Assembly: GCA_020073015.1 (NCBI GenBank)
Contig: JAIQFZ010000078.1
Span: forward strand, 1-48,307
Reading direction: 5' to 3'
DNA: 48,307 bases
DNA from: Terriglobia bacterium
GTDB taxonomy: Bacteria; Acidobacteriota; Terriglobia; Terriglobales; Acidobacteriaceae
Shown: one piece after another, positions 65 through 9,874 of the stretch
How the letters are laid out: each line of letters starts with the position of its first letter
How positions within the stretch are numbered: the stretch's first letter is position 1
Position numbers and translations under genes: made by a program
Notes under the pieces: generated by a model
Told to the model about the DNA's origin: nothing
Database searches by the model: none
Seen by the model: only the letters and a program-made list of their open reading frames with translations

Positions 65-1150
65 CTACGCTCTCCACGCCACAATCAGCGCCGTCACTAT
101 GACATTCGCCATCGCCACCGGCAGCAGGACCTTCCACCCAAACGCCATCAGTTGGTCATAGCGGAAGCGGGGAAGAGTCCAGCGCACCCAGACGTACAGA
201 AACATGAAAAAGAAAACTTTCAGACAGAACCAGACGACCGGCAGAACCATTTGCAGGAGCGGCGGTCCAAACACCGGGCCCAGCCAGCCGCCGAAAAACA
301 GCAGCGTCGCCAGGCAGGCCACCGTCACCATGTTCGCGTATTCCGCCATGAAGAACATGGCGAACTTCATGGCGCTGTATTCGGTGTGATACCCGGCAAC
401 CAGTTCCGACTCGGCTTCCGGCAGATCAAACGGCGTGCGGTTGGTCTCCGCGTAGGCCGAAATCAAATACGTGAAGAACGCCACCGGCTGAAGAAAAATG
501 TTCCAGTGCAAATGGCGCTGCGCTTCAACGATGTCGCGCAAACTGAAGCTGCCTGCCAGGATCAGCACTCCAACCAGCGACAGGCCGAGCGAGACTTCAT
601 AGCTGATCATCTGGGCACTGGCGCGCAGGCCGCCGAGCAGCGAATACTTGCTGTTCGACGACCATCCGGCGAGGGCGACACCGTACACGCCCATGGACGT
701 GATACCCAGGATCACCAGCAGCCCGATATTCAGGTCGGTAATCTGGAACGGCGTACTGATCGCATCGATCGTCAACCAGTGGCCGACATGGATCGCCGGA
801 ATTTCTATCCAATTGCCGAATGGAACCACCGAGATTGAGGTTATGGCGAAGACCACCGCAAGCATCGGGGCTGCGATGTAGAGCGTCTTGTAGACGTAGG
901 GTTGGGTCAGGTCTTCCTTAAAGATGAACTTGATGCCGTCTGCAAGGGGCTGCAACAAGCCAAACGGCCCTACCCGCGTGGGCCCCCAGCGGTTCTGGAT
1001 GTGAGCCGACACCTTGCGCTCCAGCCAGACGCTGTAGGCCACCGCCGTGAGCAGGACAAAAATCACGGCCACTGACTTGATGATCGAAATGATGACGTAC
1101 GTCGTTATGTTCAACGAAGTCTTCCGTCTCTGCTCGTGTGGCGCGGACAT
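65..1150 (-). CDS. nuoH: NADH-quinone oxidoreductase subunit H
   Basis: Membrane subunit of complex I that forms much of the quinone-binding chamber at the joint of the peripheral and membrane arms. The 361-residue product has about eight hydrophobic segments and family motifs: LLERK-like [17 protein letters not shown] near residues 42-58, then [20 protein letters not shown], and later [20 protein letters not shown], the acidic quinone-site loop. Length is normal for the family. The ATG at 1150 lies inside a 22-bp palindrome (1141-1162). A TTG at 1114, preceded by GGAAG, gives a product starting [10 protein letters not shown] that matches usual NuoH N-termini and may be the true start. It is last of the nuo genes seen here and follows nuoG by 43 nt. 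Confidence 0.95.
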
Positions 1151-1162
1151 TCCTGTCCGCGC
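1141..1162. repeat. REP-like perfect palindrome at the nuoG/nuoH junction
   Basis: Two 9-bp arms, GCGCGGACA and TGTCCGCGC, flank a 4-nt loop. In the nuo mRNA it would form a very stable hairpin. It contains the first ATG of the nuoH frame, so initiation there would be occluded when the hairpin forms. This favours the TTG start 36 nt downstream, or alternatively translational control of nuoH. The perfect arms and intergenic placement suggest a dispersed repetitive extragenic palindrome; other copies would have to be found elsewhere in the genome, as none was seen in this window. Confidence 0.6.
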
Positions 1163-1193
1163 GGTTTTGATCTACCCGACTGCTAATTCGTCC

Positions 1194-3548
1194 CTAGTCC
1201 GCCGCAATCTCTGATTCCGCTGGCTTGTTTTCATACACCGAATTCAGAGTATGCGAATACCGTCCCAAAGTTCCGGAGCTGAACAAATCGTCATTTGCCG
1301 GAACGATGAGTTCCGGCTTGTGAGAAGCGCCCACGCCGCAGTGTGCGATCTCGATGTGCTGATCGGCGCCCGCGAGCAGGTTGGTGCGCGAAACGTCGTA
1401 GCCCGCCACTACGCGCTGGATCTCGTCGAGAATGGCCATCGGATCAAAGGGCGTCATCTTCGGCTCAAGATTGTGCGCTTCGAGCCAAACGGCGTGACGA
1501 TCCGCTTCGCCCGACTGCGCGCCGCGCGTCTGTCCCATGTCGGCGTGCGTCCCGCCGCCAAATGGCACCAGGCTGCGCACATCGAAACCCATGGCGTCGG
1601 CAATGCGGACAATCATTTCGAAATCCGGCTTCGTCCCCGTGACCTCGCCCGCCTTCTTGACCAGTTGCAGATCGCCGCATGTGTTCGTAAAGGTGCCGGA
1701 CTTCTCATACGAATTTGCCGCCGGCAACACCACATCGGCGATCGTCGCCGTTTCGGTCAGGAACATGTCCTGAACCACTACCAAACTTTTCGAGAACGTG
1801 AACGGGTCGATTCCAAGGCGGCCGATCGGATTCGAGCCCACAACGTACAGAGCCTTCAGCTTCCCGGCTTTGGCCGCATCCACCATTTCCGGCAGACTCA
1901 AACCTTTTTCCGCAGGAAGCGCGCCCCAATCTTGCTGGAAGCGGCCGCCTTCGCTCACGGGTTGATAGCCGGGCAGCAGATCTGGATACAAGCCCATGTC
2001 GGCCGCGCCGCGCGAGTTTGCATAGTCGCCCAAGCAAATCAACTTCGCGCCAGAGAGGGAGGAGGAAACACTCACCAGCGTCTGGATGTCCTGCGCGCGC
2101 AGCTCGGAGCCAAACGCGATGACCAGATTCTGCTCGGCGCGGATTTTGTCTCGCAGCGCAGTCCATGCCTCGCGGGTCGTACCGTCGCTCACCAGCGAAT
2201 CGAGTTGGGAATCATCGCCGCCCAGGAAGGCGACCGCTTTCGCTTCCGCACCTGCCGGAAGCAGACCAAATCCAGCCGCCTGTTTCTGCAGCTTGATGGG
2301 CGCAGAGTTGATCACGTACAGCTTCGCCCGGCGCAGCCGGACGTTGGTGCGGATCTGCCACGCCAGCAGCGGATGCTGGTTCGTCGGATCGTTGCCAATC
2401 AGCAAGATCGCGGGCGCGGTCAATACGTCGCGCATGGAGGCCGTCTGACCGGGCTTGCTATGCAGTGCCGCCGCCAGGGCAGGGAAGTCGGCCGTGCGGT
2501 GATGATCGACGTTATTGGTCTTCAGCACGACGCGGGCAAATTTCGAGAGCAGGTAATTTTCTTCATTCGTCGTGCGGGTCGAGCCGACCACGCCGATGGC
2601 TAATCCGCCGTCTTTGTCGCGTACCTCGGCAAAGCGTTTCCCAATCAGCTCAAACGCCTCTTCCCAGGTGGAAGGCATCAGCTTGCCGCTCTTGCGGATC
2701 AGCGGCTGCATGATGCGTTCTTCGCTGTGCGCAAAGTCGAACGCGTAGCGCCCCTTGATACACAGGAAGTCGTTATTGATCCCGCTCTTGTCGCGGTTAT
2801 CGCCGCGCACAATCTCCATGCCGGTGTCGCAGCGGCGCACGCCCAGCGTGGTCTTGCAGCCGTCGCCGCAATGGGTGCAGACCGTGCCCACGTGATTCAT
2901 TTCCCACGGGCGAGTCTTGTAGCGATAGGCTCCGGAAGTGAGTGCGCCGACCGGGCAAATGTCGATGCACATGCCGCACTCTTCGCACTCCAGGTGATCG
3001 TCCTGATTGGGCGCGATGATGGAACTGACGCCGCGGTTCTGCACACCCAGCGCCCAGACGTCCATGCCCTCACCACACACCCGGACGCAGCGGTAACAAA
3101 GGATACAGCGCGGGCGGTCAAAGTACACCACCGGAGACCACTGCTGTTCCTCGCGGTGGTTCTTGGCCTCCATGAATTTCGACTCGGAGGCGCCATACGA
3201 GAACGTCATGTCCTGCAATTCGCACTCACCGCCGGCGTCGCACACCGGACAGTCCAGCGGATGATTGCCGAGCAGCAACTCGACCATCGCCTTGCGAGCC
3301 TGGCGGACTTCGTCGTTGTCGGTCGCGACGACCATGCCCTCGGTGACCACCGTGGTGCAGGCGGTCTGCAACTTGGGCATCTTCTCGATCTTCACCACGC
3401 ACATGCGGCAGGCGCCCTGCAGCGATAGGCCCGGGTAATAGCAGAAGGAGGGCACTTCGATGCCGACACTCTTGCAGGCCTCGATCAGCAGCGTCCCCGC
3501 GGGAGCCGTGAGCTTCTTGCCATCGACAGTGAGATTGACGTCAGCCAT
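1194..3548 (-). CDS. nuoG: NADH-quinone oxidoreductase subunit G
   Basis: Iron-sulfur subunit of the complex I peripheral arm that carries electrons from NuoF/E towards NuoI/B. About 784 residues. The N-terminal [2Fe-2S] ferredoxin domain has Cys36, 47, 50 and 64. It is followed by the His/Cys N5-type cluster site (HPLDCPVCDAGGECELQD), the N4-type CxxCxxC plus CEECGMCIDICP ligands, and a molybdopterin-oxidoreductase-like domain starting with CTHCGDGC, which may bind a further cluster. The frame opens further upstream (3599) inside nuoF; the ATG at 3548 is chosen because the product then begins MADVNLTVDG, the usual ferredoxin start, five bases after the nuoF stop. The C-terminal MopB part is catalytically inactive in this family. 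Confidence 0.95.
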   Translation of the reverse strand: MADVNLTVDGKKLTAPAGTLLIEACKSVGIEVPSFCYYPGLSLQGACRMCVVKIEKMPKLQTACTTVVTEGMVVATDNDEVRQARKAMVELLLGNHPLDCPVCDAGGECELQDMTFSYGASESKFMEAKNHREEQQWSPVVYFDRPRCILCYRCVRVCGEGMDVWALGVQNRGVSSIIAPNQDDHLECEECGMCIDICPVGALTSGAYRYKTRPWEMNHVGTVCTHCGDGCKTTLGVRRCDTGMEIVRGDNRDKSGINNDFLCIKGRYAFDFAHSEERIMQPLIRKSGKLMPSTWEEAFELIGKRFAEVRDKDGGLAIGVVGSTRTTNEENYLLSKFARVVLKTNNVDHHRTADFPALAAALHSKPGQTASMRDVLTAPAILLIGNDPTNQHPLLAWQIRTNVRLRRAKLYVINSAPIKLQKQAAGFGLLPAGAEAKAVAFLGGDDSQLDSLVSDGTTREAWTALRDKIRAEQNLVIAFGSELRAQDIQTLVSVSSSLSGAKLICLGDYANSRGAADMGLYPDLLPGYQPVSEGGRFQQDWGALPAEKGLSLPEMVDAAKAGKLKALYVVGSNPIGRLGIDPFTFSKSLVVVQDMFLTETATIADVVLPAANSYEKSGTFTNTCGDLQLVKKAGEVTGTKPDFEMIVRIADAMGFDVRSLVPFGGGTHADMGQTRGAQSGEADRHAVWLEAHNLEPKMTPFDPMAILDEIQRVVAGYDVSRTNLLAGADQHIEIAHCGVGASHKPELIVPANDDLFSSGTLGRYSHTLNSVYENKPAESEIAAD

Positions 3549-3553
3549 TCTTT

Positions 3554-4867
3554 TTACGCCATCGCCGGGATACGATCCGCCGCCTTCTCGAACGGGCACG
3601 GTTTGCCATCCAGGTGATCTTCAAATTCCTTTCTGAACTTCTTCACGAATGCCATGGTGGGCATCGCGGCCGCGTCTCCGAGCGGACAGAATGTTTTGCC
3701 CAGCATGTTCTCGGAGAGGTAATAAATATTGTCGATATCTTTCTTCAGCCCGGCGCCGGCATGGAAGCGCGTCAGCGTCTTCTTGAGCCAGTCGGTGCCT
3801 TCACGGCACGGGATGCACCAGCCGCAGCTTTCATGCTGGTAGAACTTGATAGTGCGCAGCGCGAAATTGACGATGCAGGTCGTGTCATCGAGTACCACCA
3901 CGCCACCCGACCCTAGCATCGATCCCGCCTTCCCCACCGAATCGAAGTCCATCGGAATATCAATTTCTTCGGGAAGCAGCACCGGGGTCGACGACCCACC
4001 GGGCACCACCGCCTTCAGTCCACGGCCGTTCGGAATGCCGCCGCCAACCTCGTAGATCATCTTCTTGAGGTTGTAGCCCATCGGCAACTCGTACACACCC
4101 GGCTTGTTCAGGTTTCCGCTCAGGCAGAACAGGCGCGTGCCACCATTTTTGGGCGTGCCCAGTCCGGCATACCATTCCGCGCCGCCCAGGATGATGTGAG
4201 GGACGGCTGCCAGCGTCTCCGCATTATTAATGACCGTCGGCCCGCCCCACAGCCCAACCACGGCTGGGAAGGGCGGCCGGATGCGCGGGACGCCACGCTT
4301 GCCTTCGAGCGATTCCATCAGCGCCGATTCTTCGCCGACCTCGTACGCTCCCGCTCCACCGTGCCAGTAGATGTCGAGATCGTATCCGCTGCCGAAAATG
4401 TTCTTGCCCAGGAAGCCTTTGGCGTACGCGTCCTTGATTGCCTTCTGCATGATCACTGACAGGTAGCGATACTCGCCGCGAATGTAGATGTAGCCGGTAT
4501 GCGATTGCACCGCGATGGCGGCAATCATCACGCCTTCAATCACGGAGTGCGGATCATGCTCAAAGATCAGGCGGTCTTTGCATGTCCCGGGCTCGCTCTC
4601 GTCGCCGTTGCACAAAACGTACTTCGGCTTGGCCGACTGCTTCGGGACAAACGACCACTTCATGCCGGTGGAGAATCCGGCGCCGCCACGCCCGCGCAGC
4701 CCGGAATTCTTGACCTCGTTGATGATCGCGTCCGGCTGCATGCTGAGCGCCTTCTGCACGGCTTTGTAGCCGTCCAGTTGGAGGTAGCGATCGATATCCG
4801 TCGCCCCCTGGCCAAAGCGCTTCGAGATCACGCGCACTTCGTCGGGATGGGAAACTAGAGAAGCCAT
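3554..4867 (-). CDS. nuoF: NADH-quinone oxidoreductase subunit F
   Basis: NADH- and FMN-binding subunit of complex I, the electron entry point. The 437-residue product has the nucleotide/FMN motif GLRGRGGAGFSTGMKW (about residues 56-71), the acidic NADH region around YCNGDESEPGT-like CNGDESEPGTCKDR, a SLBB-type domain, and the N3 [4Fe-4S] ligands in ESCGWCIPCREG plus the later Cys in TFCPLGDAA. The frame extends upstream to 4930, but that extension is translated heptad repeat. The ATG at 4867 (MASLVSHPDEV) matches family N-termini. It overlaps no neighbour: the stop lies 5 nt before nuoG, and the repeat hairpin at 4879-4946 separates it from nuoE. Confidence 0.96.
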   Translation of the reverse strand: MASLVSHPDEVRVISKRFGQGATDIDRYLQLDGYKAVQKALSMQPDAIINEVKNSGLRGRGGAGFSTGMKWSFVPKQSAKPKYVLCNGDESEPGTCKDRLIFEHDPHSVIEGVMIAAIAVQSHTGYIYIRGEYRYLSVIMQKAIKDAYAKGFLGKNIFGSGYDLDIYWHGGAGAYEVGEESALMESLEGKRGVPRIRPPFPAVVGLWGGPTVINNAETLAAVPHIILGGAEWYAGLGTPKNGGTRLFCLSGNLNKPGVYELPMGYNLKKMIYEVGGGIPNGRGLKAVVPGGSSTPVLLPEEIDIPMDFDSVGKAGSMLGSGGVVVLDDTTCIVNFALRTIKFYQHESCGWCIPCREGTDWLKKTLTRFHAGAGLKKDIDNIYYLSENMLGKTFCPLGDAAAMPTMAFVKKFRKEFEDHLDGKPCPFEKAADRIPAMA

Positions 4868-4878
4868 TTGAAATTGGT

Positions 4879-4946
4879 AATTTGTAATTTGTAATTGAAA
4901 ATCCAAAACCTTTGCGCACCGGCTTTTCAATTACAGATCACAAATT
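4879..4946. repeat. AT-rich heptad repeats as a 23-bp inverted repeat between nuoE and nuoF
   Basis: The left arm, 4879-4901, is built of GTAATTT units. The right arm, 4924-4946, is its reverse complement at 21 of 23 positions, with further heptads continuing out to 4962. Only 22 nt (4902-4923) lie between the arms. In the nuo transcript this gives a long stem with a short loop immediately upstream of the nuoF start. The arms closely match those that bound the four-helix-bundle gene at 5451-5868, so this looks like a gene-less copy of the same element. It is sharply AT-rich compared with the flanking nuo genes. Confidence 0.75.
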
Positions 4947-4958
4947 TCAGATTACAAA

Positions 4959-5441
4959 TTACATCGTTCCCTTCTTCTTGTACTCGTCGAGAACTTGATC
5001 CATCTTGTCGACCGTCAGGTTCTCGTGAAAATCGTAGTTGACCTGTACGGCCGGGGCCCAACTGCACGCCCCGATACATTCGACTTCTTCCAGCGAAAAC
5101 AAGCCGTCCTGCGTGGTGCCTTTGTGGCCGATGCCGAGTTTCTTCTGGCAATGGTTGAGCAGTTCCTCGCCTCCGCGCAGCATGCAGGCGATATTTGTGC
5201 ACACCTGCACGTTGTATTTGCCCCGCGGCTTGGTGGTCAGCATTGAGTAATAACTGATCACGTTGCGAACTTCGAGTTCGGTCAGGTCCAGCCGCTGCGC
5301 CAGTTCGACAATGACTTCGTCGGTCAGTGCGCCGGCTTCGTCCTGCGCGTAAAGAAGGGTCGGCACGAGCGCGGAACGCTTGGTTGGGTAATGCGTGAGC
5401 ATGTCGGCGAAGCGCTGTTCGAACTCTTGTGAGAACTTCAT
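4959..5441 (-). CDS. nuoE: NADH-quinone oxidoreductase subunit E
   Basis: Small [2Fe-2S] subunit of the NADH dehydrogenase module, partner of NuoF. 160 residues, the usual length. The N-terminal helical bundle is followed by a thioredoxin-like ferredoxin domain with the four cluster ligands Cys81, Cys86 (CTNIAC), Cys122 and Cys126 (CIGAC). The start MKFSQEFEQRF fits the family. Both flanks hold heptad-repeat stem-loops rather than the short overlaps seen between nuoA, C and D. Its codons and composition are like its neighbours, so the repeats, not the gene, are the foreign-looking component. Confidence 0.95.
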   Translation of the reverse strand: MKFSQEFEQRFADMLTHYPTKRSALVPTLLYAQDEAGALTDEVIVELAQRLDLTELEVRNVISYYSMLTTKPRGKYNVQVCTNIACMLRGGEELLNHCQKKLGIGHKGTTQDGLFSLEEVECIGACSWAPAVQVNYDFHENLTVDKMDQVLDEYKKKGTM

Positions 5442-5450
5442 AGATTTGTA

Positions 5451-5868
5451 ATTGGCAATTTGTGATTTGTAATTTTACCGTCTCAGCTACGTTTCCGAAC
5501 CGATTGTTGCGTTACGGTGAAGATCGCCGTCAGCTCCCTCGATTCTTGGAGCAACTCTTCTAATAACGCCATCCGTACAATTCCTGCGTCTGCCAACATC
5601 TCCAACCAGAATCCGCTCTCGTCCGCTTCCTCCACCATTCCCCAATTCGTGCTGCAAACTCAGCTCGCGACCTGGCTCGGCAAGATGCCCGGTAGTTCGC
5701 GGCTACCGAAGTCCCACATCGCAAAAGCTGTTTCCCTATGACCTGTGCATCTGCGGTCCGCGGCAACGAGCGATAGAGTTTCACCACCCGGAGCGCAAAC
5801 GATTTCGTCCGCGCGCGCAACTCATCCGGAGTCATGAGCTTTTCGATTACAAATTACAAATTACCAAT
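5451..5868 (-). repeat. Inverted heptad-repeat element enclosing an S23-family gene (intervening-sequence-like)
   Basis: Arms at 5451-5473 and 5846-5868 are reverse complements at 21 of 23 positions; in the minus-strand RNA one of the two differences becomes a G-U pair. Heptads (consensus AAATTAC or its complement) continue past the arms. The 372 nt between them hold essentially only the four-helix-bundle gene. The element fills the nuoD/nuoE junction, which would otherwise be short. 23S rRNA intervening sequences of Leptospira and Coxiella have the same plan: complementary ends that form an RNase III substrate and a loop encoding an S23 four-helix protein. The comparison to an mRNA-borne version is inference. 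Confidence 0.7.
5483..5835 (-). pseudogene. Four-helix-bundle protein (23S rRNA IVS / S23 family), frameshifted
   Basis: The frame from ATG 5835 reads MTPDELRARTKSFALRVVKL then GTSVAANYRASCRARSRAEFAARIG, which is typical of the S23 four-helix-bundle family (also related to the Avd accessory protein of diversity-generating retroelements). After IG the frame drifts. Resuming in the adjacent frame gives MVEEADESGFWLEMLADAG and a family-like C-terminus that stops at 5483. One missing base near a GGGG run, around 5625, explains this. As it stands translation ends at about 5560 after 91 residues. Expected full length is about 117 residues. The cellular role of this family is unknown. Real mutation or a homopolymer consensus error are both possible. 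Confidence 0.8.
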
Positions 5869-5871
5869 GGC

Positions 5872-7077
5872 TTACCGGTCGATGTCTCCCAGCACCACAT
5901 CAATGCTTCCAATGGCCGCGATCACATCCGCAATGAGGTGTCCTTCACACATCTTGGACAGCGCCTGCAGGTTGGCATACGACGGACCGCGCATGTGCAC
6001 GCGATACGGCTTGGCCGTCCCATCGCTCACGATGTAGTAGCCCATTTCGCCGCGCGGCGACTCGACTGCCTGGTAAACCTCACCCGCCGGAACCGAGAAG
6101 CCCTCGGTGATGATCTTGAAGTGATAGATGAGGGCTTCCATCTGCGTCTTCATGTTCTCGCGGTCGGGAAGAACGACCTTCGGCGCGTCCGCTTTCACCG
6201 GCCCTTCCGGCATTCCCGCCAGCGCTTGCTGGACGATGCCGATCGACTCCCGCAGTTCCTGGACGCGGCATACATATCGTGCAAATACATCACCTTCCGT
6301 GGAAACCGGAACCTCGAACTTGAAGTTTTCGTAGCCCGTGTAGGGAGCATCGCGCCGCAGATCAATATCCACGCCGCTGCCGCGCAGAGTCGGGCCACAC
6401 GCGCCGAGCGCAATCGCGTCGTCCATGCTCAGCCGCCCCACGCCCTTGGTGCGCATCATGAAGATCGGATTCCCGGTCAGCAGCCCTTCGTACTCATCCA
6501 CATTGCCGGGAAAGCGATCGGCAAACTTCTTCACCTTCTCGAAGAATCCGAGCGGCGGTTCCAGCGCCAGCCCGCCGATGCGGAAGTACGACGTCATCAT
6601 CCGCTGCCCGCTGACCATCTCAAAGAAGCGGAGGACGTCCTCGCGCTCGCGGAAGCAATACAAGAAGACCGTCATCGCCCCGAGGTCCATGGCGTGCGTG
6701 CCCAGCCAGACCAAGTGCGAGTTGATGCGGGTCAACTCATTCATCAGGACTCGCATCCACTGCGCCTTGGGTGGAATCTCCAGCCCCAGCAATTTCTCCA
6801 CTGCCAGGCAGTAGGTCAGGTTGTTGGTGAGGGGGCACAGGTAGTCGATGCGGTCGGTCAGCGGCACGACCTGCTGGTAGAACTTGGCCTCGCAGGTCTT
6901 CTCGATCCCCGTGTGCAGGTAGCCGATCTCCGGCATCAGGCGCACCACGGTTTCGCCGTCAATCTCAAGCACCAGTCGCAGCACTCCGTGGGTCGACGGG
7001 TGTTGCGGACCCATATTGAGGACGAGGGTGCGGTCCTGGCTTGGTTCTGTGACAGTAGCGGCGGGGAATTGCGTCAT
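5872..7077 (-). CDS. nuoD: NADH-quinone oxidoreductase subunit D
   Basis: The 49-kDa-type subunit of complex I, which forms the quinone-reduction site with NuoB and NuoH. 401 residues, full length. Recognisable parts are NMGPQHPSTHGVLRLVLEIDGE near the N-terminus (the quinone-site His/loop), IGYLHTGIEKTCE, the GVDYLCP-like region, and the C-terminal GDIDR ending shared with [NiFe]-hydrogenase large-subunit relatives. It starts 3 nt after the nuoC stop, implying translational coupling. Its quinone-site partner nuoB is not in this operon segment. Confidence 0.96.
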   Translation of the reverse strand: MTQFPAATVTEPSQDRTLVLNMGPQHPSTHGVLRLVLEIDGETVVRLMPEIGYLHTGIEKTCEAKFYQQVVPLTDRIDYLCPLTNNLTYCLAVEKLLGLEIPPKAQWMRVLMNELTRINSHLVWLGTHAMDLGAMTVFLYCFREREDVLRFFEMVSGQRMMTSYFRIGGLALEPPLGFFEKVKKFADRFPGNVDEYEGLLTGNPIFMMRTKGVGRLSMDDAIALGACGPTLRGSGVDIDLRRDAPYTGYENFKFEVPVSTEGDVFARYVCRVQELRESIGIVQQALAGMPEGPVKADAPKVVLPDRENMKTQMEALIYHFKIITEGFSVPAGEVYQAVESPRGEMGYYIVSDGTAKPYRVHMRGPSYANLQALSKMCEGHLIADVIAAIGSIDVVLGDIDR

Positions 7078-7080
7078 GAC

Positions 7081-7578
7081 TTACCGGTAACCTTCCACCG
7101 GGTAGTCTTTCCGCAGGGGATGACCTTCCCAGTTGTCGGGCATCATGATGCGTTTCAGGTTCGGGTGGCCGGTGAAGCGGACGCCGAAGAGATCGAAGAC
7201 TTCGCGCTCGTAGAAATTGGCGGACGGCCAGACCGAGGTCACCGACTCAATCGCGGGGCTCGAACCGTCGAGCTTTGCCTTCAACCGCACCCGCTCCTTC
7301 TTCGGAATCGAAAGCAGGTGATACACCACTTCAAAGCGCGGCTCCGACGGATACCAGTCCACCGCCGTGAGATCGCAGAGATAATTAAAAGGACAGTCGG
7401 GGTCGTCCCGCAGAATGGCACAAGCTTCGCGGATCGAGCCTTTCTCAACCCAGATCGTCAGTTCCTCGCGGTCGAACTTTACCGCCTCGACCACCGGCGC
7501 GTTCCATGCCAGCAGGCGAGCGAGCGCGGGATGCGCCTTCAGTTGTTCGACATCGGTAATCGCGGGAGCCAGTGCCAT
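7081..7578 (-). CDS. nuoC: NADH-quinone oxidoreductase subunit C
   Basis: The 30-kDa-type subunit of the peripheral arm. 165 residues with the family core: LCDLTAVDWYP (about residues 67-77), FEVVYHLLS, and the conserved ERE(V)FDLFGVRFTGHPNLKRIMMPDNWEGHPLRKDYP near the C-terminus. It is a free-standing subunit, not fused to NuoD or NuoB as in some bacteria. The ATG directly abuts the nuoA stop codon with no gap. Confidence 0.95.
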   Translation of the reverse strand: MALAPAITDVEQLKAHPALARLLAWNAPVVEAVKFDREELTIWVEKGSIREACAILRDDPDCPFNYLCDLTAVDWYPSEPRFEVVYHLLSIPKKERVRLKAKLDGSSPAIESVTSVWPSANFYEREVFDLFGVRFTGHPNLKRIMMPDNWEGHPLRKDYPVEGYR

Positions 7579-7974
7579 TTAGACATCCCCTCGTCTAGCG
7601 CTGCGCAAACCCCAGTCGAGCACGCCTTTTTTCCACACATAGAAGAGACCGACCAGGAAGATGGCAATGTAAACGATCATCTCCCAGAATCCGAACATCT
7701 TCAGTTCGCGCAGGATGATGGCCCAGGGATAGAGGAACACGGCTTCCACGTCGAACAGAATGAACAGCATCGCGACCATGTAGAACTTGACCGAGAAGCG
7801 TTCCCGGGCGTCGCCGATGGGCGGAACTCCGCATTCATAGGGAGACAGCTTCGCTCGATTGGGCTTATGTTGCCCGATCAGCCACGACAGGGTCACAATC
7901 GCGCCCGCAATGACCGTGGCGATGCCGAAATGCAGCAAGAGGGGCAGGTAGCGAGCGAAATAATTGTCCGGCAT
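7579..7974 (-). CDS. nuoA: NADH-quinone oxidoreductase subunit A
   Basis: Small membrane subunit of complex I, 131 residues with three predicted transmembrane helices (about 10-30, 65-87 and 94-112). The conserved ESG-type loop appears as YECGVPPIGDARERFSVKFY, containing the invariant Cys, and is followed by the acidic FDVEAVFLYPWA segment. It is the first gene of the operon as read here. The next gene downstream is nuoC, so nuoB is absent from its usual position. Upstream sequence 7975-8124 is shared with a divergent gene. Confidence 0.95.
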   Translation of the reverse strand: MPDNYFARYLPLLLHFGIATVIAGAIVTLSWLIGQHKPNRAKLSPYECGVPPIGDARERFSVKFYMVAMLFILFDVEAVFLYPWAIILRELKMFGFWEMIVYIAIFLVGLFYVWKKGVLDWGLRSARRGDV

Positions 7975-7986
7975 AGGAGGAGCTAG

Positions 7987-8015
7987 ATATAATGCGCGCC
8001 AAGCAATACAGTAAA
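7987..8015 (-). promoter_or_regulatory. Possible nuo operon promoter
   Basis: On the minus strand TTTACT (8010-8015) and TTATAT (7987-7992) are separated by 17 bp, giving a weak match to a sigma-70-type promoter just upstream of nuoA. The start site would lie only a few bases from the nuoA ATG at 7974, giving a very short leader; the coding strand there reads CTCCTCCT and has no purine-rich Shine-Dalgarno sequence. Confidence 0.3.
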
Positions 8016-8058
8016 CGTTCTAGATTAGTTTTTGGCTGGTAAAAGTGTCAAGCTAAGC

Positions 8059-8075
8059 GGAACATTAAATGTTCC
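8059..8075. promoter_or_regulatory. Palindromic operator candidate between nuoA and the divergent gene
   Basis: GGAACATT-A-AATGTTCC is a perfect 8-bp inverted repeat around one central base. It sits in the 150-bp divergent region, 84 bp upstream of nuoA and 50 bp upstream of the ATG at 8125. The symmetry suits a dimeric repressor or activator. The GAAC...GTTC ends recall some SOS boxes, but the spacing differs from the known LexA sites I can recall, so no regulator is assigned. Confidence 0.4.
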
Positions 8076-8080
8076 AGCAT

Positions 8081-8104
8081 TCCTCAGAAGCTGTCTTCTC
8101 AGGA
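8081..8104 (+). other. Leader hairpin just upstream of the ribosome-binding site at 8106
   Basis: Arms 8081-8090 and 8095-8104 are complementary at nine of ten positions around a CTGT loop. The hairpin ends one base before GGGAGAG, the likely Shine-Dalgarno sequence of the gene starting at 8125. It could influence translation or mRNA stability. No U-tract follows, so it is not an intrinsic terminator. Confidence 0.4.
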
Positions 8105-8124
8105 CGGGAGAGAGTTCGAACCGC

Positions 8125-8712
8125 ATGATTTTCGGTTTCAACACCGACATAAAACACGAAGACACGGTGTACCACGTGCAAAGCGAGGCGCGCGAGAGCG
8201 AGCAACTCCTGCAAACCCAGGTTTTCGTGCGCGGCCGTTGCATCGGCAAGCGGGCGGTCTCCTATGCCCCCACCGCTGCCGAAGGCCAGGTCAGCGATCA
8301 GGAGAAAGAAAGGATGCTGCGCGATCAGCATCGCCAGGTGCTCGATGCCATCCGTGACGGGAAAGTTGATTCCGTCTTCGACAAGCGCGATACGCCTGAG
8401 ACCCTCGCCGCAGTGAAAGAACTTGATCTCCAATGGCTCAATGCGAACTCCGTCCACGCCGCTGGTACGTTGCTGATGCATATGCGCGTCACCGAGGGCG
8501 GGGCCGCGGTCGAGGGCGCCCGCCTCACGTTTCGCTTCGTGCGCCCCGACGCGCCACCTTTCTACGCGCAAGTGTTGACCGATGCAGAGGGCAACGCGCA
8601 GATGAGCGTCCAGGTGGAGGAAGCCTCGTTGCGCGACTCTTCCGTGCTGGTGCAGGCCAATGTTTCCGGACGCACCGCCACGCGCAAGTTTGAGTTCCGC
8701 TCGGCCCAGTAG
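8125..8712 (+). CDS. Conserved protein of unknown function with a C-terminal Ig-like/carboxypeptidase-regulatory-like domain
   Basis: 195 residues, no signal peptide or membrane segment. The frame is open from a TTG at 8032, but ATG 8125 has a good purine-rich site (GGGAGAG) and gives the start MIFGFNTDIKHEDTVYHVQSEAR. The N-terminal third is a compact region ending in GKRAVSY; a charged helical middle follows (DQEKERMLRDQHRQVLDAI); the last ~80 residues (MRVTEGGAAVEGARLTFRFV...YAQVLTDAEGNAQM) look like a beta-sandwich of the kind seen in carboxypeptidase-regulatory or Big domains. I recognise no enzyme motif. It is divergent from nuoA behind a palindrome and hairpin. Confidence 0.8.
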   Translation: MIFGFNTDIKHEDTVYHVQSEARESEQLLQTQVFVRGRCIGKRAVSYAPTAAEGQVSDQEKERMLRDQHRQVLDAIRDGKVDSVFDKRDTPETLAAVKELDLQWLNANSVHAAGTLLMHMRVTEGGAAVEGARLTFRFVRPDAPPFYAQVLTDAEGNAQMSVQVEEASLRDSSVLVQANVSGRTATRKFEFRSAQ

Positions 8713-8757
8713 CATCCGGCTTGCTCCCCTGCTTCCACTGCTGCGAAAATTAATCCG

Positions 8758-8976
8758 ATGAACCTCATCATTAACGGGGAGAACCAGGTCTGGTCGGCCG
8801 ATACCCTGAGCGCTCTGGTCGACCAGCTCGGTATGAAGTCCGACCGCGTTGCCATAGAGCTGAACCGGGAGATTGTACCGCGCGATCAGTGGGCCCAGAC
8901 TCGTTTGGCGGATGGCGATCGGCTCGAGATCGTCCACTTTGTGGGCGGCGGGTCCGGATCGCCGTGTCTTTCATAA
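8758..8976 (+). CDS. thiS: ThiS-like sulfur carrier protein with a C-terminal tail
   Basis: 72 residues with the ubiquitin-like ThiS pattern: MNLIINGE at the start, [15 protein letters not shown] in the middle and [16 protein letters not shown] near the end. ThiS donates sulfur for thiamin thiazole synthesis through a C-terminal Gly-Gly thiocarboxylate. Here the Gly run is followed by SGSPCLS, so the glycine is not the terminal residue. Either the tail is trimmed, the protein works in another sulfur-transfer route, or an indel changed the end. No thiF, thiG or thiH lies nearby. It is preceded by the gene at 8125 and followed 13 nt later by an M48 protease. Confidence 0.8.
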
Positions 8977-8989
8977 GGAGACTGCTGCT

Positions 8990-9874
8990 ATGAAGAGAAC
9001 CATTCTGTTGGCAAGCGCAATCGTCGTCGTTCTTAGTTTCGGAAGTCCGTCCTTCGCCCAAGGTCCGCATCGCTTTCAGCCCGGCTTCAATCTTTTCTCC
9101 AAGCAGCAGGACGTTCAACTGGGGGAAGAGTCCGCGGCCCAGGTTCGCAAACAGATGACCGTCATCAACGATCCCGTGCTGACGGCATACGTAAGCCGAG
9201 TGGGCAAGAGACTCGTTGCAGCGCAGGAGGCAACCGAAAGCGGCTTTCCATTCAGTTTCGAAGTGGTCGCCGACCCGAGCATCAATGCCTTTGCGTTGCC
9301 CGGTGGACACATGTTCATCAACACTGGACTTCTCAAAGCCGTCGACAACGAAGCGCAACTGGCCGGTGTGATGGGCCATGAAATGTCGCATGTCATCCTG
9401 CGTCACGGCACCAACCAGGCCTCGAAGGCCAACCTGATCGAACTCCCAGCGGCGCTGGCCGCGCAGATGGCGGGCAAGGACTCCATGATGGGCCAACTGG
9501 CGCAACTGGGCATCGGCTTAGGCGCCAACAGCGTGCTCCTCAAATTTTCCCGCACTGCCGAGAGCCAGGCCGACCTGATGGGTTCGCACCTCATGTCCGA
9601 GGCCGGCTACAATCCCATGGAGATGGCGCACTTCTTCAACAAGCTCGGCAGCCCCGGTAAAGGAATGGTCGGCAACGTGGCGCAGTTCATGTCCGATCAC
9701 CCCAATCCCGACAATCGCGAGCGCGCCATCGAACAGGAAGCGCGGCTGCTGCCGCAGCAGACCTACGGCTACCAGACCGGTGACTTCAAGCGCATGAAAG
9801 GAGTGGTAGCCAAGATTCACGAACCGGCGCCCAAGCCACCCCAGCAGCAGGTTCAGCCGTCACAGCAGCAGTGA
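8990..9874 (+). CDS. Secreted M48-family zinc metalloprotease
   Basis: 294 residues with a signal peptide (MKRTILLASAIVVVLSFGSPSFA, cleavage near residue 23). The M48 zinc motif is GHEMSHV with His130, Glu131 and His134; the third ligand Glu is in SRTAESQADLMG. It resembles periplasmic LoiP/BepA-type proteases that act in outer-membrane quality control, and its substrates are not evident from sequence. The C-terminus is Pro/Gln-rich. The frame is open upstream, but ATG 8990 has an AAGGAG site nine bases away and restores the signal peptide. Confidence 0.9.
   Translation: MKRTILLASAIVVVLSFGSPSFAQGPHRFQPGFNLFSKQQDVQLGEESAAQVRKQMTVINDPVLTAYVSRVGKRLVAAQEATESGFPFSFEVVADPSINAFALPGGHMFINTGLLKAVDNEAQLAGVMGHEMSHVILRHGTNQASKANLIELPAALAAQMAGKDSMMGQLAQLGIGLGANSVLLKFSRTAESQADLMGSHLMSEAGYNPMEMAHFFNKLGSPGKGMVGNVAQFMSDHPNPDNRERAIEQEARLLPQQTYGYQTGDFKRMKGVVAKIHEPAPKPPQQQVQPSQQQ

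Follow-up and report, generated by a model that had tools for sequence, protein, structure and literature searches.

Introduction

What kind of genetic element is an S23-family gene between inverted heptad repeats, and how does it come to lie inside a protein-coding operon? The question is raised by a 48,307-nucleotide stretch of DNA from Terriglobia bacterium (contig JAIQFZ010000078.1), herein called the window, in which such an element separates nuoD from nuoE. Proteins matching PF05635 are annotated as "four helix bundle protein" or "S23 ribosomal protein" and, in the available part of one report, are said to lack a known function (PMC4990558). The same portion of that report describes an intervening sequence (IVS) in the 23S rRNA of Coxiella burnetii, about 430 nt in total, which carries an S23 ORF, tandem heptamers (GACAGAT) at its 5' end and a 28-bp terminal stem cut by RNase III; the S23p protein itself was thought by its authors not to be made (PMC4990558). 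In a full-text literature search, with most subscription papers and all preprints outside its scope, no paper was found that connects S23 with inverted heptads other than in rRNA.

The S23 element and its surroundings in the nuo operon

The window element is located between nuoD and nuoE, not inside an rRNA gene, and its S23 gene runs in the same direction as nuoC, nuoD, nuoE and nuoF. On the minus strand, nuoD (5872-7077; TIGR01962, 574 bits) is its upstream neighbour and nuoE (4959-5441; TIGR01958, 161 bits) its downstream neighbour; nuoF (3554-4867; TIGR01959, 596 bits) follows past a gene-less hairpin, its start having been set at 4867 from comparison with relatives. The preliminary description of the window had placed the arms of the element at 5451-5473 and 5846-5868, and their reverse complementarity at 21 of 23 positions (91%) was confirmed. 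The 7-bp units described there were also recovered, but the left arm exceeds the limits first given: it covers 5444-5474 on the plus strand (31 nt) as four 7-nt units plus ATT (ATTTGTA ATTGGCA ATTTGTG ATTTGTA ATT). This is the 3' arm of the element and the reverse complement of the 5' arm, which lies on the minus strand at 5846-5869, reads ATTGGTA ATTTGTA ATTTGTA AT.. in gene sense (three heptads and a partial fourth) and pairs with 5444-5474.

Between the arms, as had been described, lies an S23-family gene copy (PF05635, 23S_rRNA_IVP; 5483-5835, minus strand), but in the window this copy is frameshifted. Its uninterrupted ORF spans 5560-5835 on the minus strand and matches PF05635 over its first half (residues 9-63; 30.8 and 32.5 bits against a cut-off of 33.8); beyond it, the C-terminal portion is encoded in a different frame as far as about 5483. 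At the same nuoD/nuoE junction in four relatives (G002, G004, G005 and G016), the S23 frames are uninterrupted (one was translated), so that the window copy is either frameshifted or affected by an assembly error.

A gene-less inverted pair of the ATTTGTA heptad family, absent from the preliminary description, occupies the nuoE/nuoF junction at about 4868-4966 (minus strand). It was recognized by motif matches and by its predicted RNA fold, which is strongly stable (-30.8 kcal/mol, z -4.3), and the nuoE stop codon (4959-4961) falls inside one of its arms, within a heptad. A search for AATTTGTAATTTGTAAT, a 17-mer motif of ATTTGTA type, with up to three mismatches gave 13 hits in the window where shuffles predict 0.01, and all 13 are confined to the S23 element and to this gene-less pair. 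Chance in AT-rich DNA is ruled out as the source of the ATTTGTA heptads by this difference; most S23 elements use GC-richer heptads.

Inverted arrays around S23 genes elsewhere

At each S23 locus surveyed, the 300-nt 5' flank was matched locally to the reverse-complemented 3' flank of equal length; the highest-scoring match had to reach 28, after which the period of the matched arms was determined. The genome-contig set consisted of the best 80 of 585 confirmed stretches, drawn from many bacterial phyla and two Methanophagales archaea, and thus favours relatives of the query. The relatives set consisted of 71 loci taken from 145 PF05635 matches in the genome that carries the window and 40 relatives, some genes being counted twice. 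Six short loci (L048, L049, L059, L060, L064 and L066) and one at an edge (L150) were left out, the truncated L050 was retained as a miss, and two loci occur in both collections (L046/L124 and L100/L115). The random-window comparison left out L150 and L162, and the viral set left out L273.

In the genome contigs (best 80 of 585), 62 of 79 usable S23 loci passed with an arm period of 7 or 8. When 700 small ORFs of the same contigs were used as a control, 13 passed by score; adding the period criterion left 7, one of which (L155) turned out to be another S23 gene. Among 390 random windows of the same size, 4 passed by score; the best flank period was 7 in 32 of the 390, compared with 58 of 78 S23 loci from the best 80 of 585. 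For the own genome and its relatives, 64 of 71 loci passed by score and 63 with period 7 or 8. The preliminary description had named S23 genes without flanking inverted heptads as evidence against its model; of the 150 loci combined (79 from the best 80 of 585), 24 fell short of the threshold and 126 scored at least 28, and the viral, plasmid and control-ORF sets agree with this picture. The 24 misses include the S23 element of G002 at nuoD-nuoE, and several of them show weaker heptads. Inverted arrays with a period of 7, and sometimes 8, therefore surround most S23 genes examined (109 and 16 of the 126 passing loci, respectively, with the arms of L094 too short to tell). Coincidence of S23 genes and inverted arms was ruled out by the 390 random windows and the 700 control ORFs.

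The association was also recovered in other collections. One of the two archaeal loci (L135) passed, the other (L162) being cut off at an edge. In contigs from a viral collection, 35 of 44 S23 loci passed, or about 30 of 36 once near-identical copies were collapsed by eye; a phage collection gave no S23 match. Plasmid loci, none of them picked by their flanks, were fetched from 14 of 34 records and then from 11 of 23, and all passed (14/14 and 11/11, or 25/25), the flanks of the second set of 11 including 20 nt of the gene ends. They include loci from Nostoc, Calothrix, Anabaena, Planktothrix, Azospirillum, Gemmatirosa, Bernardetia and Chlorohelix.

Arms are most often 31 nt long when the period is 7 (4x7+3; 19 of 109) and 35 nt long when it is 8 (4x8+3; 3 of 16). 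In the 5' arm, the sense strand carries more G than C at 104 of the 126 passing loci. Among 250 arms, 161 contain 4-5 units of 7 or 8 nt; five units per arm as a rule was only partly borne out, since 80 arms have 4 and 81 have 5.

Several individual loci depart from the common form. In the planctomycete locus L113, the S23 gene is flanked on both sides by matched arms of 247 nt, each with roughly 28-34 heptad units. Octad arms occur in relatives (L081, L083-L085, L087, L091-L093 and L097), chiefly where the S23 gene belongs to the same subfamily as that of the window, and the ATTTTGTA octad looks like an extended ATTTGTA. Heptad or octad arrays are also found in frame within long ORFs of L122 (Chloroploca; 488-9825) and L152 (2038-3576), the repeats of L122 encoding recurrent peptides such as QVSGVRFQVSG and LTPDTWNLTP.

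Gene-less hairpins and their relation to S23 genes

In the 5.5-Mb genome that carries the window, PF05635 was found at seven places, the six outside the window scoring 115-139 bits. Inverted arrays lie on both sides at all seven, with a different heptad unit at each. The same genome holds many hairpins without a gene. The ATTTGTA unit gave 56 matches at 18 sites, compared with none for a reversed-pattern control; 12 of the 18 sites are two-armed, all with the same polarity, and the other 6 show one arm. A CAGTTCTC-type unit alone gave 237 matches against 18 in the control. Within 400 kb, 20 strong hairpins were detected, compared with 1 in shuffled DNA, and 6 of the 20 have a period of 7 or 8 at a value of at least 0.6, with one more close to it. 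Extrapolated from these 400 kb, about 80-100 heptad or octad hairpins would be present per genome, as against 7 S23 genes. Gene-less copies with element-type termini are thus dispersed through the genome. That these hairpins arose from S23 elements by simple internal deletion is unsupported, because their loops look unrelated in sequence (by eye). Aperiodic hairpin families were also seen in this genome, at L236 13345-13422, L244 12693-12768 and L244 2947-3029 (TGTCATCC..GAGCGAAGCG; GCGGACACTCC..GTCCGCG).

Such abundance could mean that S23 genes merely hitch-hike, having been caught in or near frequent intergenic heptad hairpins of a different system. The 6 to 7 heptad hairpins without S23 in 400 kb fit this explanation, as do genomes rich in ATTTGTA matches for which no matching S23 gene was seen among those examined: G006 and G008 have 147 and 205 matches, with no ATTTGTA-armed S23 among the places inspected (2 of 3 and 2 of 6). 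Hitch-hiking would, however, leave unexplained why 62 of 79 S23 genes (best 80 of 585) but 7 of 700 control ORFs are flanked in this way, with one array on each side in mirror order, and why the association persists across phyla that differ in their heptads. In addition, eight S23-less genomes are nearly devoid of the three heptad or octad types searched: their matches to the AG-type heptad number 0, 1, 0, 0, 0, 0, 0 and 0, and the ATTTGTA and CATTGA types gave none. Hitch-hiking is accordingly regarded as very improbable.

Across genomes, S23 genes and heptads tend to occur together. Heptad runs are frequent in those members of the genus that carry S23, many of the runs being gene-less hairpins, and the number of S23 genes correlates with that of AG-type heptad matches (Spearman 0.78 in 41 genomes, 0.57 in the genus and 0.60 in family f2), a relationship confounded by phylogeny. 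One member of the genus, G022, is 95% complete and S23-less, and both its nuo junctions are empty. Five S23-bearing genomes have no AG-heptad match (G027, G035, G037, G039 and G040); arms observed in three of them (G027, G039 and G040) belong to types other than AG, and in G039 the reversed control pattern gave 29 matches. A cognate S23 gene is associated with a modest enrichment of hairpins (p 0.016 and 0.019; 5 versus 19 genomes, with a subset of their S23 loci examined). Strict one-to-one pairing of S23 and hairpin families is unsupported.

States of the nuo junctions among congeners

The nuo junctions were compared in the 21 of 24 genus genomes with a clear nuoE (all but G006, G009 and G021), and their states were classified by eye. 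Between nuoD and nuoE, an S23 element is present in 5 genomes, a gene-less octad hairpin in 7, a one-arm remnant in 1 and another repeat in 1, and the junction is empty in 7. A single junction is thus found in empty, gene-less and S23-bearing states among congeners. Empty junctions leave a stop-start gap of at most 16 nt, some of them with overlapping genes. The search for clean empty sites that the preliminary description had proposed therefore supports insertion, 7 of the 21 junctions being near-empty. Comparison of filled with empty nuo junctions, which differ by a few nucleotides and by overlapping stop and start codons, revealed no target-site duplication. In G001, the relative with the most similar nuoE, the nuoD/nuoE gap (L188) holds a different palindromic repeat (GCCCCGAAGGGGC...). 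The nuoE-nuoF junction carries a hairpin in 17 of the 21 genomes and is empty in 4; its unit families, assigned by eye, are ATTTGTA in 8, ATTTTGTA-type in 5 and CATTGA-type in 4.

Selection, inheritance and mobility

Purifying selection was shown for the nine S23 orthologue groups compared, with dN/dS values of 0.03-0.18 (computable in 24 of 28 pairs, synonymous sites being often saturated). Recent movement of S23 elements is hardly seen: among 30 locus pairs whose S23 DNA is at least 78% identical, 29 have homologous flanks and 1 does not, which indicates that most copies are old residents. Over longer times, turnover is shown by the presence or absence of elements and by the gene-less copies.

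The arms themselves vary. Arm length differs between S23 orthologues in a comparison of arm and flank conservation, and 15 compensatory arm changes were counted between related elements, compared with 3.1 expected under independence; a single group accounts for 14 of these, 8 of the 14 being in pairs with L051, whose flanks are non-homologous, and 13 double changes are non-compensatory. Among S23 proteins at least 60% identical but without homologous flanks, heptad similarity was 0.533, compared with a permuted mean of 0.463 and a maximum of 0.504 (176 pairs; none of 999 permutations reached the observed value). Over all pairs, the correlation between heptad and protein was weak (r 0.10, reached by 4 of 999 permutations). 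At E <= 0.01, three S23 proteins matched PF05635 and bAvd only among Pfam models, with no transposase model, and S23 has no known catalytic domain with which to move the elements, a point against the element class proposed below.

These data also bear on the possibility that S23 is a resident RNA-level regulator, which would bind the heptads of its own hairpin and of others at operon junctions, as TRAP binds spaced triplets, and control downstream translation or decay, its mobility being ancient or incidental. Purifying selection and the vertical inheritance of most S23 orthologues would be expected of a regulator, and placement between cistrons of nuo, cas, cmr, nrd, restriction or defence loci, together with a stable predicted RNA hairpin, is in line with such a role. 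It is less easily reconciled with the emptiness of the same junctions in some congeners, or with heptads that also lie in frame inside coding genes (L122). Furthermore, the unit family at nuoE/nuoF varies between congeners, which fits turnover better than a conserved regulon. Regulation as the main role is therefore considered rather unlikely, though it is the alternative given the greatest weight.

A proposed element class and its mechanism

Altogether, these results point to S23 with inverted heptads as a widespread, largely overlooked kind of genetic element, whose gene-less relatives are scattered through bacterial genomes. Probably the gene and the inverted array on either side of it form one unit, an S23-heptad element, belonging to a class that extends across many bacterial phyla and one archaeal locus and acts by the mechanism outlined here. 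As part of this whole explanation, the window copy is likely an old, vertically inherited element whose gene is now frameshifted or appears so through an assembly error.

In the proposed mechanism, the S23 protein, a pentamer judging by its solved relatives, would recognize its own heptads as single-stranded DNA or RNA, with about one heptad unit per subunit, and this recognition would help to maintain or spread the elements. The gene-less hairpins would be non-autonomous derivatives, and 23S rRNA IVSs with S23 would be members that landed in rRNA. Two solved relatives are entered with five chains each, namely 2gsc (E 1.9e-26) and 2rld (E 0.0039), and the X. campestris protein is cited as a homopentamer in the available part of the report on Coxiella (PMC4990558). 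Five chains, combined with 4-5 units per arm, suggest that S23 may be a heptad-binding ring with one unit per subunit, although 4 units are as common as 5. TRAP, which binds spaced triplets, would offer a parallel. Between mRNA cistrons, the paired arms could be a substrate for RNase III, as in rRNA. Such cutting is plausible because the arms of the window element pair in the predicted fold and the gene-less hairpin is predicted to be stable.

A bolder version of this explanation must be regarded as doubtful. According to it, S23-heptad elements would constitute an undescribed pan-bacterial mobile class whose sole protein is a non-catalytic pentameric ring, around which arms of about five 7-nt (or 8-nt) units, one for each subunit, would wrap as single-stranded RNA or DNA; they would be the main source of over-abundant heptanucleotide repeats in bacterial genomes, rRNA IVSs would be their rRNA members, and movement at an RNA stage with a borrowed enzyme might occur. 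The survey links PF05635 proteins to a constant partner in the genome: inverted heptad arrays, which also provide a concrete candidate ligand.

Comparison with known systems

REPIN/RAYT systems and MITEs combine a protein gene with many gene-less palindromic relatives. Gene-less relatives are thus common to these systems and to S23 elements. Unlike them, S23 matches no Pfam transposase model, and its arms are tandem heptads or octads. The Avd/bAvd proteins of diversity-generating retroelements form a homologous family, according to the available part of one account (PMC10053308). The S23 protein of L001 scores 36.6 bits against PF22296, below the cut-off of 40, and the genes adjoining the window element are nuo genes.

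Heptad arrays have been described in several other bacteria. As here, the Xanthomonas GGGAATC and Nostoc GGGGA(T/C)T arrays are intergenic, and two Xanthomonas genomes hold 70 and 75 convergent inverted pairs with the polarity seen here, as stated in the accessible portion of the source (PMC4692102). X. campestris has an S23 protein, XCC0516, whose structure is 2gsc. In that same portion, the heptamers are read as quadruplex-forming simple repeats that lie generally away from mobile elements, and S23 is unmentioned; the Nostoc heptamers have few inverted pairs, which counts against the S23-heptad explanation (PMC4692102). Similarly, marine Beggiatoaceae carry intergenic TAACTGA heptanucleotide arrays in many sets per genome, as here, but these are almost all direct rather than inverted, and S23 is unmentioned in the available sections, which likewise counts against it (PMC4679880). 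A survey cited in those sections found heptanucleotides to be the most abundant class (PMC4679880).

S23-family genes have also been sighted in cas loci: 23S_rRNA_IVP genes are reported there in the available part of one study (PMC3936711). In the present survey, plasmid S23 elements separate cas6 from cas4 and cmr2 from cmr3 or adjoin cas1, and six of them (L291, L298, L303, L304, L309 and L313) are at CRISPR or restriction/defence junctions (cas6/cas4, cmr2/cmr3, cas1 and drmD/pglX). Insertion between cistrons would explain the earlier sightings, as far as that part of the study describes them (PMC3936711).

The closest comparison is with insertions in rRNA genes. In CPR bacteria, 23S_rRNA_IVP is found at several sites of 16S and 23S rRNA genes, with ORF-less insertions at similar sites; the main text, as far as available, describes no arms and contains no word starting with "repeat" (PMC11270868). 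With the Coxiella IVS, as presented in the available part of its report, the window element shares an S23 ORF, complementary termini (21/23 in the window) and heptamers; unlike that IVS, it lies in a protein operon and has gene-less hairpin relatives dispersed in the genome (PMC4990558). The authors' view that S23p is not produced in Coxiella counts against the S23-heptad explanation as well. The likeness to 23S rRNA IVSs drawn in the preliminary description is thus supported, and so is an insertion at nuoD/nuoE. In its strict form, the model of that description would have an rRNA IVS transferred to the mRNA junction, cut there by RNase III, and the expression of complex I segmented as a result. 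Besides the shared anatomy, it can draw on the predicted RNA fold, where the terminal arms form a duplex; the fold of the whole element is, however, only modestly better than shuffles (z -2.2). Three short 23S motifs, searched with at most one mismatch, are absent from the 80 genome-contig S23 loci (best 80 of 585), where sites outside rRNA are the rule, and the rRNA IVS therefore looks like a special case rather than the origin. Single 23S-motif matches in a relative's S23 locus (L067) and in overlapping hairpin loci (L011, L012 and L037) were taken as chance. The strict model is thus judged improbable, and the reading of S23 gene and inverted arrays as one unit is preferred. Since the Coxiella rRNA IVS also has heptamers, according to the available part of the report, such IVSs are read as rRNA-inserted members of a wider class (PMC4990558). 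The rRNA IVS is the nearest known kind, and the window element shares its anatomy, not its location.
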